64,000 nucleotides of DNA from Microbacterium testaceum (GTDB lineage Bacteria > Actinomycetota > Actinomycetes > Actinomycetales > Microbacteriaceae): contig NZ_JAJGNJ010000007.1 in NCBI RefSeq assembly GCF_020781835.1, forward strand, positions 124,001-188,000, in the 5' to 3' direction. A program made the translations under genes and the position numbers. Shown in pieces: positions 23,527 through 28,982 of the stretch. Each line of letters begins with the position of its first letter. The first letter of the stretch is position 1. The notes beneath the pieces are model-generated. The model did not search any database. It saw only the letters and a program-made list of their open reading frames with translations, and had not been told where the DNA came from.

Positions 23527-23542
23527 GCGGCGGAACGACGAC

Positions 23543-23572
23543 GGGCCCCGCGCGGTCACTCGCGCGGGGCCC
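23543..23572. terminator. Terminator hairpin of the left nrdF-end copy
   Basis: A perfect 12-bp stem (23543-23554 with 23561-23572) and 6-nt loop. It follows the YegP-like gene on the plus strand and the duplicated nrdF tail on the minus strand, so it may act in both directions. A near-identical hairpin is found at 27939-27967. Confidence 0.75.
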
Positions 23573-23653
23573 GTCATCACAACCGGATCAGAAGTCCCAG
23601 TCGTCGTCCTCGGTGGCCTCGGCCTTGCCGATGACGTACGACGAACCCGAGCC
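23543..23653 (-). pseudogene. Remnant copy of the nrdF 3' end plus terminator (left end of island)
   Basis: These 111 bp match 27939-28049 with about 9 differences. They encode the same last ~20 NrdF residues ([19 protein letters not shown]) and stop. The five coding differences (Gly, Ser, Ala, Thr and Asp codons) are all synonymous. Upstream of 23653 the reading runs into unrelated island DNA, so this is a displaced tail and not a gene. It looks like the original nrdF end left behind when DNA carrying its own nrdF end was inserted. Confidence 0.9.
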
Positions 23654-23672
23654 CTCGATGACATTGTGTCCG

Positions 23673-24416
23673 TCAGCTTCTGCCCGGCTTGGCTGCCACC
23701 GGAGCGGCAAGCGTTGTCGCGGCATCAAGGACAGTGAAGAAGCGATCTGCGAAGACCTCTGCTTGCTCCCGCACCCAGCTCTGCCGGGCTACCAACACCC
23801 ACAGTGCAGTCACGAGCACCTGGACGAGCAGAATAGGCACGACCACAAGCCAACTGAGCAAGCCGACACATGCCACGCTCACAGCAATACCCAACGCCAC
23901 GGCAGACACGACCAGCCCAAATGGCTTTAGCGCGAAGAGGTTTCGCCGGAACCCATAGCTCGTGTTTTCGCTCTGCAGCAGGTCCGTTCCAGCTTCCGCC
24001 GCGCTTCGCAGCAGGGCGAGGGCTGTTCGCACAGCCTGGGCAATTGCCTCGTCTGCACCACGCGGGTCAGCCTCCTGCTCGGCGAATCCGGGGAGTTTAC
24101 GCCCGGTGAAGGCCTCCAGCTGAAGTCGGCGACGACGCACCTCAGTGTCGGCGCCCGCCACCGCCCGCAACGCGCGCGTTGTTGGCATCCCGCCCCACTG
24201 CCCCGCGAGCTCGCGCTCGATCTTCCGCCCACGAGACCTCGCGATTTCGCTCGCTACAACGCCAAAGAGCAAAGAAGCTGTCGCCGGCCCCACGGACCCG
24301 AGAAGCGCGCTGAGTTCGATGGTGCTGAGCATAAGCATGAGCACGGGCACGGTGACGAGGGCTGCGGGAAGCCAGCGGGCCTTCAGCGTGTACGAGTCGA
24401 AGTGCCCACCTACCAT
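23673..24416 (-). CDS. Four-helix membrane protein paired with the MBL-fold hydrolase
   Basis: A 247-residue protein with two N-terminal membrane helices (about 15-33 and 38-56), a ~105-residue charged cytoplasmic segment and two more helices (about 163-183 and 186-209). Conserved-looking motifs are FDSYTLKARWLPA at the N-terminus, QWGGMPTTRALR (WGG 74-76) and SENTSYGFRRN (149-159) just before helix 3. I associate this layout with small bacterial membrane proteins of unknown function and cannot name the family. The ATG overlaps the end of the hydrolase gene by 7 nt (ATGGTAG), so the two products are made together. A pore or sensor partner is a guess. Confidence 0.72.
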   Translation of the reverse strand: MVGGHFDSYTLKARWLPAALVTVPVLMLMLSTIELSALLGSVGPATASLLFGVVASEIARSRGRKIERELAGQWGGMPTTRALRAVAGADTEVRRRRLQLEAFTGRKLPGFAEQEADPRGADEAIAQAVRTALALLRSAAEAGTDLLQSENTSYGFRRNLFALKPFGLVVSAVALGIAVSVACVGLLSWLVVVPILLVQVLVTALWVLVARQSWVREQAEVFADRFFTVLDAATTLAAPVAAKPGRS

Positions 24417-25453
24417 TCGCCCTCCTCAAGAGGGGGGACGGGCGTAGCGGGTCCCCAGCCCGCGCGGTTAGTAGCTCCGTAGCAGAGAGTGGTTCCTTCA
24501 GTCACATTTACAGTGGCACCTCGTCGCCCGAGCGCGTTGGTGACCTTGGGCGAAGGGTGTTTCTCGGACAGTTTCGCGCTGCTGATGACGGCCAACGTGC
24601 TGCCGTATGCCTCCCCTTTGCGTCCCAGAATGCGGTTCAGCACGGTAGGCCCCACATTGCGGTGGCTTCCGTGGTGAGGTGCCTGCAACAGGTCAAGCGG
24701 ATAGTCCGAGAAGGTGCCGACGATCCGCTCGTACTCATCTGCTGCGTGATCGAGCGACGGGATACCCGCATCTCCAGTGAACAGGAGCCGCTTCCCGTCC
24801 GCCTGAACGAGGGTGATCACAGACCCCTTGTTGCGGGCAGACGTCTCGTCAGCGTCGGAGAGCGTTTCGACGGGGAACGCGCTGAGCACGCGCTCAAGGA
24901 CCTTCTTTCCTGTGGCGAGCATCTGCGAGCCGAACGAGCCCCGAGCGGACAGTTCGACGGCCCCGGTGACCGCGGACACGTCTCCGGCCAGTTGCTCTTC
25001 GTAGAAGGCCACCGTCGGGCCCAGAACGCGCACGGCTCCATCGAACCGGACGACCCCGGTAAACGGCTCGGTGATAGGAATGCTCTTCCTCACCGCCAGG
25101 TCGTACAACTCCACGATCCTCTCGAAGTTCGAGATTTCCGCCGCCTGACGGTTGTACTTCCACGGCAGGTGCATCATCAGCTCACCGACCTCGCAGTTCT
25201 CGAGGACCTTCACGAGCCCGTTGATGTGGTCACCATCCGGATGGGTCGAGATGACCAGGTCCACTCGCTTGGTGCCGTAGTACTGTTCGATGTGCGCTGC
25301 CAGGTCCTCACCGACCGCGCCGAATCCACCGTCGATCACAACAACGACAGGCTCGTCGCGACTCGGCGTGGTGATCCTCATACAGATGGCGTCACCGCTC
25401 TTGGTAGAGCCACCTTCTTCTGCCTCCACCGGCAGGAAGTCCACTTCGTACAT
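24410..25453 (-). CDS. Metallo-beta-lactamase-fold hydrolase (ComEC/Rec2-like stand-alone domain)
   Basis: A 347-residue soluble protein with the MBL fold. Metal motifs are STHPDGDHINGL (HPDGDH 71-76, the HxHxDH box with its first His replaced by Thr70-His71 spacing typical of ComEC-like members), FTGDAG (225-230) and APHHGSH (258-264). It opens with MYEVDFLPVEAEEG and continues VVVVIDGGFG, as in stand-alone competence-like hydrolases. It lacks the ComEC membrane channel. ATG 25453 follows AGGAGA. Members of this class act on nucleic acid or small phosphodiesters (family knowledge), so DNA or a signal nucleotide is a possible substrate. It is coupled to the downstream membrane protein and divergent from the AAA/RloB pair. 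Confidence 0.82.
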   Translation of the reverse strand: MYEVDFLPVEAEEGGSTKSGDAICMRITTPSRDEPVVVVIDGGFGAVGEDLAAHIEQYYGTKRVDLVISTHPDGDHINGLVKVLENCEVGELMMHLPWKYNRQAAEISNFERIVELYDLAVRKSIPITEPFTGVVRFDGAVRVLGPTVAFYEEQLAGDVSAVTGAVELSARGSFGSQMLATGKKVLERVLSAFPVETLSDADETSARNKGSVITLVQADGKRLLFTGDAGIPSLDHAADEYERIVGTFSDYPLDLLQAPHHGSHRNVGPTVLNRILGRKGEAYGSTLAVISSAKLSEKHPSPKVTNALGRRGATVNVTEGTTLCYGATNRAGWGPATPVPPLEEGEW

Positions 25454-25494: not shown

Positions 25495-25618
25495 TTGAGC
25501 GGGTCGAACCTGGACTCGCCCAGGCACGGGGCACACGTTCCCCGTCTAGAGTTGAGGTGTCCACCAAGACATCAACCCCGATCTACCGAGGTGCTCAACC
25601 GCCGCCGGTAGGTCGGGG
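25495..25618 (+). ncRNA. Candidate structured RNA in the island's divergent intergenic region
   Basis: Three hairpins lie in a row on the plus strand: CCTGG/CCAGG (25509-25524), ACGGGG/CCCCGT (25526-25545) and a 13-bp stem with one mismatch (25576-25588 with 25606-25618). The loop of the last contains GCTCAAC (25593-25599), complementary to TTGAGC at 25495-25500 and to GTTGAG at 25551-25556, so alternative pseudoknots are possible. The region separates the two divergent pairs. It may be a small RNA, an mRNA leader for either pair, or a terminator. No known class is recognised. Confidence 0.4.
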
Positions 25619-25663
25619 TCTCTGCATCTGCGGTCACTCCGCGACTTGTGGTCGGTTTGAGCT

Positions 25664-25683: not shown

Positions 25684-25789
25684 CGAAAACCGCCTCGAAA
25701 CCGGCTGTTTGTCCGCCGTAGGTAAAGAAATCGCTAGTTTTCTGCAAAGATTGGATCGAGGACACCCCCACGGCCTCCAAGGAGCCATC

Positions 25790-27079
25790 GTGTTGATAGA
25801 TTTCACCGTCGCCAACTTCCGTTCGATCCGTGACCGACAGAGCCTGACCCTTGACAGGTCAGCTCGCGGGACGAGGGAGGCCCGGGAGGCAGGGTGGCGC
25901 CGCCCGGACATACTTCCGGTTAGCGTCATCTACGGCGGCAACGCCGCTGGCAAGACGTCGCTCATCGACGCGGTCGGCTATCTCATCTCAGCCGTGGAGA
26001 ACAGCTACGCCAGCTGGAAGCCCCGGGGGGGGACCGGACGACGCGAGCCCTTCCGACTCGACCGTGCACATTCGAATCAGCCGACCGAGGTCGATGTCGA
26101 GTTCGTGGCCGGAGATGGTCTGGAGTACCGGTATGGCTTCGCGATTGACGACGAAAGAGTGGTGAGCGAGTACCTTCATGTGTTCCGGACTCGCCGCCGA
26201 AGCGTACTCTTCGAACGCGAACTGGATGACTACAAGTTCGGCGACTCGTTCAGAGGCCCAGCCTCCCTGCTGCGCGGCACCACCCGTCCAAATGCGTTGT
26301 TCCTTTCTGCCGCGGCGGCTGCGGGCCTCGACGCAACCGAGGCAGCGCACGCTTGGATCACCGAGACACTTGCGGTTTATGCCGCCACCGACTACAGAGC
26401 AGAGCATCACCATGTGAAGCAGAGGATGAGCGAGGATCCGGGTTATCGTGCGCACATGACCGCTTTGATGGAGTCGGCCGGCCTGGGCGTGGTCGGCCTC
26501 GATGTAAAGCGCCACGAGCTACCCTCTGAAGAACGTGCGCGAATTCGGAAGCTTCTAGAAGCGCAGAATGAGCTCAACAACATCGACGAAATCCTCCGCA
26601 CCATCGAGTCGGAAATAGTCCTCCGCCATCGCGGGGAGGACATGGACGTGGACCTCCCCTTTGACGCCGAATCTGACGGTACACACGCACTTCTATCTTT
26701 CGGCTCGTTGACCTACCGAGCACTCGAGCAAGGCACGGTGTGCGTTGTCGATGAGATAGACACGAGCCTCCATCCACTGCTAGTGCGCGAACTGGTGGCA
26801 GTCTTTACGGACCCGCGAATCAACGTGCATCAAGCTCAACTGATATTCACAACTCACGATGTGTCACTATTGGGCGCCGGTACGCCTATCGACCGGGAGT
26901 CGGTTTGGGTTGCGGAAAAGTCGCATACCGGTGCCACTAGTCTGTACCCACTAACCGAATACGGAACCCCACGCAAGGAAGAAAACCTGGAGCGCGGATA
27001 CATGACGGGCCGATTCGGAGGACTGCCCAACCTGTCCATCGCCAACACCTTCCTCGCCCTCGTCACCTCCGGCGACTAG
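25790..27079 (+). CDS. AAA-family ATPase (RloA/AbiLi-like, AAA_15/AAA_21 type)
   Basis: A 429-residue ABC-type ATPase of the OLD/RloA/AbiLi class. The N-terminus LIDFTVANFRSIRDRQSLTL is the usual opening strand pair. Walker A is GGNAAGKTS (49-57). A central helical insertion separates it from LLSFGSLTYRAL, Walker B VCVVDEIDTSLHP (317-329) and the switch His in IFTTHDVSLL (352-361). GTG 25790 is chosen because AAGGAG lies 5 nt upstream and the family motif then starts at residue 3. It overlaps the next gene by 1 nt (TAGTG). Together they match the two-gene architecture of AbiL/RloAB abortive-infection systems, in which the ATPase senses infection and the partner acts (family knowledge; not shown here). 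Confidence 0.85.
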   Translation: MLIDFTVANFRSIRDRQSLTLDRSARGTREAREAGWRRPDILPVSVIYGGNAAGKTSLIDAVGYLISAVENSYASWKPRGGTGRREPFRLDRAHSNQPTEVDVEFVAGDGLEYRYGFAIDDERVVSEYLHVFRTRRRSVLFERELDDYKFGDSFRGPASLLRGTTRPNALFLSAAAAAGLDATEAAHAWITETLAVYAATDYRAEHHHVKQRMSEDPGYRAHMTALMESAGLGVVGLDVKRHELPSEERARIRKLLEAQNELNNIDEILRTIESEIVLRHRGEDMDVDLPFDAESDGTHALLSFGSLTYRALEQGTVCVVDEIDTSLHPLLVRELVAVFTDPRINVHQAQLIFTTHDVSLLGAGTPIDRESVWVAEKSHTGATSLYPLTEYGTPRKEENLERGYMTGRFGGLPNLSIANTFLALVTSGD

Positions 27080-27753
27080 TGGGAGCCCGCTCGCCGCGTG
27101 GCGGGAGGTCGCATTCGCGATCCGCGCGCCGGCCGCATCGTAGGATCCTCGTGGTCTGTGGCGGACGCGTCCTAGAAGCGGCATATTTAGCCTATGTCGC
27201 GGCGAAACTTCGGACCCCCGGTTTGAGGGTCGAGATTGCGCCGTCTGGAACGGACCCGGTCTCACTGGTCCGCGAAGCAATTCGACTACGCGACAAAGAG
27301 AATCGCGACGCGAGATCCGCGAACGACACCCGCAACGTCTTCGATACCGTTTGGGTAATGTTGGACGTGGACGGGTTCGTCGACCGCATCGCGGCCGCAC
27401 TCCTACTCGCTGAGCGGAACGATATTCGCTGTGCGGTTTCGAATCCCAGTTTCGAGATCTGGCTGCTCTGGCACAAGGTCGATGCTGACTTACATCTCAG
27501 TCGTGTCGAGGCCTTCAGATGGGCGGAAAGATGCGGGATAGTTCAAGCCTCGATCCCCAAGAGCATCCAGACTCACGCATTGACTGGCCAGTTCAACAAG
27601 GCCCGAGATCGAGCCGTGCTCACCGACACGATGCATTCCAGGGAAGGAAGAACGAATCCGCAAAACAATCCCAGCTCCGACGTCCACATCTTGATAGACG
27701 AGATAGTTCGAGGCGCCGCCCTTGCACGAACCGAAGAAGATTTAATGCTCTAA
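27079..27753 (+). CDS. RloB/AbiLii-like protein (TOPRIM-like), with altered first motif
   Basis: A 224-residue protein with RloB-family features: a basic N-terminus, the first strand ILVVCGGRVLEAAYL (23-37), WVMLDVDGF (91-99, the DxD motif) and SNPSFEIWLLWH (120-131), with NPSSDVHILIDEI near the end. RloB proteins usually have CEGxxTE in the first motif; here it reads CGGRVLE, so the first acidic residue is missing while the second is kept. It starts in the TAGTG overlap with the ATPase gene. Low G+C and unusual codons set it apart from chromosomal neighbours. It is the probable effector of an AbiL-type pair, but the motif change raises doubt about catalysis. Confidence 0.75.
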   Translation: MGARSPRGGRSHSRSARRPHRRILVVCGGRVLEAAYLAYVAAKLRTPGLRVEIAPSGTDPVSLVREAIRLRDKENRDARSANDTRNVFDTVWVMLDVDGFVDRIAAALLLAERNDIRCAVSNPSFEIWLLWHKVDADLHLSRVEAFRWAERCGIVQASIPKSIQTHALTGQFNKARDRAVLTDTMHSREGRTNPQNNPSSDVHILIDEIVRGAALARTEEDLML

Positions 27754-27938
27754 ACGAGTGACAACAACTGCAACCGAGGAAAAAGCCGCGCCCGACCCAA
27801 AATGGCTTCGCAATCTGTGACCACACAGCCTTATAGCGACGAGGTCGGTCATTTGCGCGATCGAACCAGGCTGCGATATCTGTTGGAGCCATCGGATGTC
27901 ACGCGAAAATCGATCAGAACGTCCTAGCATAATGCGAA

Positions 27939-28982
<1,044 letters not shown>

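Follow-up and report, generated by a model that had tools for sequence, protein, structure and literature searches.

A gene for an MBL-fold hydrolase and a gene for a four-helix membrane protein overlap within the window, by which we mean the whole 64,000-nt stretch of Microbacterium testaceum DNA that was analyzed. An earlier note on this DNA had put the two forward as an undescribed defence pair that could be matched to no named system. The locus raises the question of whether this description is correct, and of what the pair may do in the cell.

The gene pair and its island

Both genes of the pair are located on the minus strand and have positions 24410-24416 in common (Table 1). This overlap of 7 nt, which had been noted before, was borne out by the ORF coordinates and probably provides translational coupling. 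A Shine-Dalgarno-like GAGGAGG stretch was read by eye upstream of the ATG of the membrane gene. The motifs named in the earlier note (HPDGDH, as part of THPDGDH, TGDAG, APHHGSH, WGG and ENTSYGFRRN) were all found in the window proteins.

Table 1. Coordinates of the pair and of the other island features in the window.
Feature	Position	Strand	Description or basis
Left boundary repeat, distal copy of nrdF 3' end and terminator	23539..23668		Repeat comparison
Four-helix membrane protein	23673..24416	-	247 aa; two TM helices, ~100-aa helical domain (WGG, ENxxYGFRRNL), two TM helices
MBL/membrane gene overlap, 7 nt	24410..24416	-	ORF calls; close spacing in relatives
MBL-fold (ComEC-type) hydrolase, PDC-M48B-like	24410..25453	-	347 aa; ORF, profile and fold model
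Inverted repeat, 14 nt, between the divergent MBL and AAA genes	25575..25619		Repeat search
AbiLi-like AAA_21 ATPase, island co-traveller	25709..27079	+	Profile matches
AbiLii/RloB-like protein, island co-traveller	27079..27753	+	Profile matches
Right boundary repeat, nrdF-proximal copy	27935..28064		Repeat comparison

The pair belongs to an island of four genes, encoding the MBL, the membrane protein, an AAA protein and RloB, that is enclosed by two boundary repeats of 130 nt each with 87% identity. At the empty site of a genome of the same genus (G053), the left flank runs directly into nrdF and a single copy of the repeat is present; the island is therefore an insertion of ~4.3 kb. In genome G051, nrdF and a second copy of its end are ~46 kb apart, and a gene for a tyrosine integrase (PF00589) lies near the nrdF end. 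From these two observations, the nrdF 3' end looks like an integration site in the genus. No integrase was seen in the island of the window. Other DNA lies between the left flank and nrdF in G009, G027, G006 and G024; at this same site, G009 encodes another MBL-like hydrolase (L124:2840-3925, weak LmuA and RTasMBL hits) and two unknown ORFs. A tRNA was rejected as the insertion site, the sole tRNA in the window being located at 53.9 kb. The search for RNA families gave one sub-threshold match, and the inverted repeat at 25575-25619 is possibly an operator, an attenuator or another regulatory site.

The remaining two island genes matched AAA_21/AbiLi and RloB/AbiLii, in agreement with the AbiL-like pair that had been recognized before. 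The same four-gene, divergent layout recurs at another site in locus L022 of the same genus, where reading by eye showed a purL-like gene next to it and, ~3.5 kb beyond the membrane gene, an ORF resembling an integrase. This recurrence would fit joint action of all four genes, both pairs included, as one system. Against it, strong AAA and RloB matches among loci L001-L093 were confined to the window and L022, with one weaker AAA match in L087, so that the AbiL pair looks like a co-traveller; we consider a joint four-gene system very improbable.

The MBL-fold hydrolase

The window MBL was matched by the PADLOC model PDC-M48B (PDLC04676) at 7.4e-75 over residues 1-342 of 346, and further PADLOC matches were LmuA (2e-20), RTasMBL (1e-15) and Avs1a (5e-11). 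The PDC-M48B match and the 78 relatives of the membrane protein show that both ORFs are genuine and not chance reading frames. Against the M48B profile, which has it among its members, the MBL scored 460 bits, vs 31 bits against that of m2, the other main MBL type described below; a WYL protein (L005:9185-10357) was left out of the MBL profile. Matches were also obtained with phrog_7043, which is labelled as a tail protein (1.7e-55, residues 1-337, in the later part of a long profile), and with phrog_14556, of unknown function.

The description of the MBL as a soluble ComEC-like hydrolase held. ComEC gave the best fold and sequence match: the sequence match was 5.3e-14, and the nearest fold of the model (pLDDT 88.7) was the ComEC nuclease domain (9ic4; Z 26.1, rmsd 2.6, 244 aligned). 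The ComEC-type fold and the metal motifs HxDxDH, D and PHHGS are present in the window MBL, and the metal-site residues H71, D73, D75, H76, D228, H260 and H261 are 97-100% conserved in 34 sequences, on the basis of which the MBL is probably an active enzyme. Compared with ComEC, ~70 extra residues are located between HxDxDH and TSxxN (124 profile columns vs 55 residues). This region is partly of low confidence in the fold model and carries residues P146, Y151 and E196, which are invariant in the 34 sequences.

The nearness to a nuclease domain favors a reading in which the MBL would be a gated DNase effector and the membrane protein a sensor or an anchor that brings it to the envelope or releases its activity there, e.g., during phage DNA entry, a possibility to which we give real weight while doubting it on balance. 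The extra residues would fit such a role, as gating insertions are described for HamM and Avs1a in the accessible text of one report (PMC12799240); the invariant residues, on the other side, make the insert unlike a disposable loop. The same text describes pairs of a ComEC-like MBL and a trypsin-like protease in Hachiman, Avs, Lamassu and DRT (PMC12799240). The window pair, a probable defence pair, resembles these in having a ComEC-like MBL and differs in its partner, which is a membrane protein and not a protease fusion. No trypsin-like protease fusion is encoded directly downstream of the window MBL, where the membrane gene is located, and that the pair codes no protease partner also weighs against a DNase effector role.

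The membrane protein

The AlphaFold2 model of the membrane protein (pLDDT 91.7) is all-helical and consists of two helices, a helical domain of ~100 residues and two further helices, which agrees with the two helix pairs around a domain that had been read from the sequence. Judging from the charges, the middle domain is probably cytosolic.

In PADLOC, no match was found for the window protein at E ≤ 1, nor for any of 77 family members at E ≤ 0.01. Pfam gave no recurrent family, none being present in more than 4 of the 77 members and all being weak; a single member gave a weak match to Pfam Competence (E 0.005), and unrelated membrane families were weakly matched as well. There was no sequence match in the PDB, none among 50,697 annotated phage records, and none in PHROGs for the membrane proteins tried; relatives were present on 6 IMG/VR contigs. 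Foldseek searches of PDB and BFVD returned nothing at E ≤ 0.001, and no pore fold was recognized by structure comparison. The VIA-align rows (helical exporters, stator proteins and a Lamassu chain; best Z 6.6) were discarded as too low for helical bundles. With hhalign, no relationship to the multi-TM partners of B. glumae or Vibrio was found, and the B. glumae partner matched a '2TM effector' model of CBASS too weakly (E 0.001) for the match to be of use. The membrane family is absent from the libraries used here and constitutes the unmodelled part of the pair.

The profile and structure searches that had been suggested for this protein gave no clear transporter or competence match. In this the pair differs from ComEC, as the membrane protein had no clear match to the ComEC channel in the Pfam and PDB sequence searches. 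The likeness of the MBL to the ComEC nuclease domain and the one weak Competence match would be expected of a housekeeping, transport or competence pair. The lack of recurrent Pfam families and of PDB sequence matches, the location on an inserted island and the sporadic presence (membrane gene in 2/198 genomes of the same genus, MBL in 2/396 of the phylum, own genome counted in both) make such a pair highly unlikely.

Pairing across genomes and viral contigs

The membrane-first sample comprised 78 loci, 72 from genomes and 6 from viral contigs. As retrieval of the genome loci relied on the pattern [TSN]YGFRRNL[LYF], the conservation of the YGFRRNL motif is partly due to ascertainment. Eight plasmid loci were partly chosen through the MBL and hence stand outside the 78-locus counts. 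An MBL neighbor was present in 73/78 loci, so that the membrane homologues nearly always stand next to MBL genes, the point on which the earlier note had proposed a check, with most exceptions at contig ends. The contexts were M48B only (31 loci), m2 with an E2-E1-JAB gene (26), M48B with both m2 and E2-E1-JAB (6), m2 with E2-E1-JAB and a third MBL (3), M48B with a third MBL (3), a third MBL only (3), and a third MBL with E2-E1-JAB (1). Contig ends cut four of the five loci without an MBL: L027, with an E2-E1-JAB fragment at the contig end, and L019, L049 and L069, with 62, 252 and 707 nt of upstream DNA, respectively. The fifth, L092, is degenerate.

In 39/40 M48B loci, the MBL gene immediately precedes the membrane gene and has the same orientation, the gap being ≤33 nt in 38/40; the M48B match extends over two separate ORFs in L045, L066, L081, L083 and L088, and is a fragment at the contig end in some loci. 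An E2-E1-JAB gene was found in 37/78 membrane-first loci, directly 5' on the same strand in 27 and within 39 nt in 24. A third MBL directly downstream of the membrane gene was present in L016, L023, L036, L040, L048 and L079; the four that were scanned (L016, L023, L036 and L048) were matched by other PDC-M48B models, so that two or three MBLs are present in some clusters. The third MBLs of L029 and L033 have no Pfam match yet match other third MBLs, and that of L033 also matches PADLOC MBL models. The third-MBL search was seeded from loci that it describes, with the seeds checked by further comparisons. Alignment A3 is alignment A1 without L011 and L014.

Starting from the MBL instead, we scanned viral contigs with the M48B alignment and obtained 58 loci. 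Among the best 37 of these 58, several are near-identical and four are on contigs already in the membrane sample. A multi-TM neighbor, determined by Kyte-Doolittle only as for all such counts in relatives, was present in 32 of the best 37, with partners from the four-helix membrane family (13, one at 28 bits), of the PDC-M48A type (15), of the B. glumae type (3) and of another kind (1). Three of the other five (L158, L160 and L169) are on contigs with an E2-E1-JAB gene, L160 having the four-helix membrane family 4 kb away, and L164 and L165 are both truncated where the contig ends. A single family of MBLs thus has partners from several membrane groups, just as a single membrane family stands beside MBLs of several types. 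As M48B-type MBLs adjoin several multi-TM groups, the window pair can be seen as a PDC-M48-like module with another membrane partner. A constant MBL combined with varying membrane groups would also suit the MBL as a DNase effector.

Comparison with PDC-M48

As judged from its sequence, the pair is a variant of the PDC-M48 candidate with an unmodelled membrane partner and not a wholly unknown system. The claim of an undescribed pair stood for the membrane family, which is new to the libraries used here, and fell for the MBL, which is PDC-M48B; MBL genes beside E2-E1-JAB fusions had, moreover, been described in 2006, according to the accessible text of that report (PMC1779556). Likewise, it is true of the membrane protein, without a PADLOC match, and not of the MBL half, which matches PDC-M48B, that the pair has no counterpart in a named system.

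The likeness to PDC-M48 lies in the MBL and in the small multi-TM nature of the partner: the window membrane protein is of this kind, and PDC-M48A, as encoded by a Citrobacter plasmid, is a protein of 168 aa for which four helices are predicted, the multi-TM reading of PDC-M48A resting on this one protein. With its 247 aa, ~100-aa middle domain and lack of a PADLOC match, the window partner is set apart from PDC-M48A, and no PDC-M48A was found beside the window MBL by PADLOC. It also differs in its location 3' on the same strand, whereas M48A-type partners in the MBL-first viral loci were mostly convergent (13/15). The search of the window's own genome with the PDC-M48A profile (PDLC04670) was empty, as was its control. 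No mention of 'PDC-M48' or 'PDC-M48B' was found in a literature search that took in a minority of subscription papers, and none of the titles among the matches listed concerned this membrane gene, which may be in print elsewhere.

Relation to E2-E1-JAB operons

Operons of an E2-E1-JAB fusion and an MBL were reported as type 6a, with 'usually' two genes (Iyer 2006, PMC1779556), and the accessible part of this description names no membrane gene. The window pair is like type 6a in its membrane protein family and in having an MBL with intact motifs. It is unlike type 6a in having no E2-E1-JAB and an MBL of the M48B type without a glycine tail, the C-terminus being ...LEEGEW. The E2-E1-JAB triple-module protein is absent among the four island genes; a PF14457 search of the own genome was empty, and so was its control.

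The two MBL types differ in their tails, which, like the membrane tree below, were analyzed with plasmid loci included. In m2, a feature recognized through this comparison is [H/A]G within the last nine residues, present in 38/39 proteins; 21 end exactly in G, and the others have a few residues more past the glycine. In M48B, 30/43 end in D/E and 1/43 in G. The near-constant [H/A]G of m2 suggests that m2 may be conjugated through its C-terminal glycine, which the JAB domain would trim or remove. The glycine-bearing tails thereby offer a sharp prediction for the target of the ubiquitin-like enzymes. In a quick membrane-protein tree, with long branches flagged, at least 14 changes of E2-E1-JAB presence were counted, and, when the well-supported (starred) branches alone are considered, each of the two main context labels must have changed 8 times.

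An m2-first scan of viral contigs gave six loci, four of them on contigs already seen. The four-helix membrane family is present in L214 and L215, and other multi-TM ORFs are nearby in L213 and L218. L216 is cut short, and L217 has none in 4.7 kb downstream, the sequence covered upstream being 1 kb. It is conceivable, if rather doubtful, that a single family of membrane effectors is used in two architectures: one with just an MBL, as in the window, and one with an MBL that takes the place of the type II CBASS cyclase and is conjugated by E2-E1-JAB via its C-terminal glycine, PDC-M48 being the conjugation-free form. If this is true, MBL-fold enzymes would be a second kind of conjugation-primed immune switch. 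The comparison links the PADLOC candidate PDC-M48 with the E2-E1-JAB and MBL operons of 2006, which in the sources covered here occur only separately.

Genomic setting and possible function

The neighborhood of 15 MBL-membrane loci (124 ORFs, 1e-15) gave 64 PADLOC families, vs 37 for a control of one arbitrary stretch from each of the same 15 genomes (119 of 135 ORFs); the test counts families and not proteins, and two of the test families listed are MBLs of this kind. Among the matches listed (25 of 64) were ThsB of Thoeris, MkoA and MkoC of Mokosh, the Druantia-type methylase DruM, a type IIG restriction model, mad3, PDC-M34A/B, PDC-M50B and PDC-M55C. The control matches listed (25 of 37) were mostly the kinase group PD-T4-6, along with PycC, mad6, mad3, which is on both lists, a helicase model and a few others. 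We read this as an enrichment of defence genes near such loci, as the earlier note had expected, in a small test at the level of families.

Many MBL loci are on viral contigs, 43 plasmid records match each gene of the pair, and an MBL-family member with another multi-TM partner is located inside a Vibrio tra region. All three would fit a pair that serves a plasmid or prophage in exclusion (entry exclusion) or addiction (toxin-antitoxin) and not in phage immunity. The loci looked at for neighbors stand among phage-defence genes, which speaks against such a pair, and we regard it as improbable. From the indirect evidence of its neighbors, its insertion and its presence on viral contigs and plasmids, the pair is probably an immune module. 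Related cassettes are carried by many bacteria, both on mobile elements and close to genes of phage defence, which makes the pair probably an uncharacterized form of a candidate system against viruses.

In type II CBASS, the gene order with its cyclase and the conjugation of that cyclase offer a comparison: the order enzyme, E2-E1-JAB, membrane protein resembles it. The explanation that we prefer, though with somewhat less than even confidence, is a two-gene immune module on mobile DNA, a PDC-M48 variant made up of a ComEC-type MBL phosphodiesterase and a four-helix inner-membrane protein. Control of the module would lie with the MBL as a cytosolic enzyme, and the membrane protein, by analogy with the gene order of type II CBASS, would be the effector that perturbs the membrane once infection alters the state or the product of the MBL. 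Where E2-E1-JAB is present, conjugation via the C-terminal glycine would prime the MBL, just as conjugation primes the cyclase of type II CBASS; the window MBL, without a glycine tail, would work without this layer.

This module is favored by the near-obligate pairing seen from both sides, the conserved metal site and the close coupling of the genes, by the nrdF repeats, the empty site in a relative and the defence-gene neighbors, and by the reuse of the membrane family with m2 and E2-E1-JAB and the repeated switching. Against it stand the membrane protein, which has neither a recognized pore fold nor a match among the annotated phage records, and locus L069, in which the membrane gene is directly preceded by an ORF that runs off the contig and is no recognized MBL. 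No CBASS CD-NTase was found among the four island genes, and with no nucleotide-making enzyme among them a CBASS-like signal would have no known source. The opposite assignment is favored by the MBLs of Hachiman and Avs as DNA-cutting effectors, and since, in the accessible text of that report (PMC12799240), such MBLs function as DNases in the Hachiman system and as gated effectors in the Avs system, the MBL as a DNase effector is nearly as good an explanation as the module with a membrane effector.

The coupled MBL and four-helix membrane pair constitutes a defined, testable module in several phyla. In an Acinetobacter cluster, the membrane gene has a WYL-domain gene (L004:8065-8967) immediately on its 5' side, and HTH and ImmA/IrrE genes lie in the vicinity; this arrangement is reminiscent of the DNA-damage regulators CapW and CapH+CapP, as these are described in the accessible text of PMC13373217.
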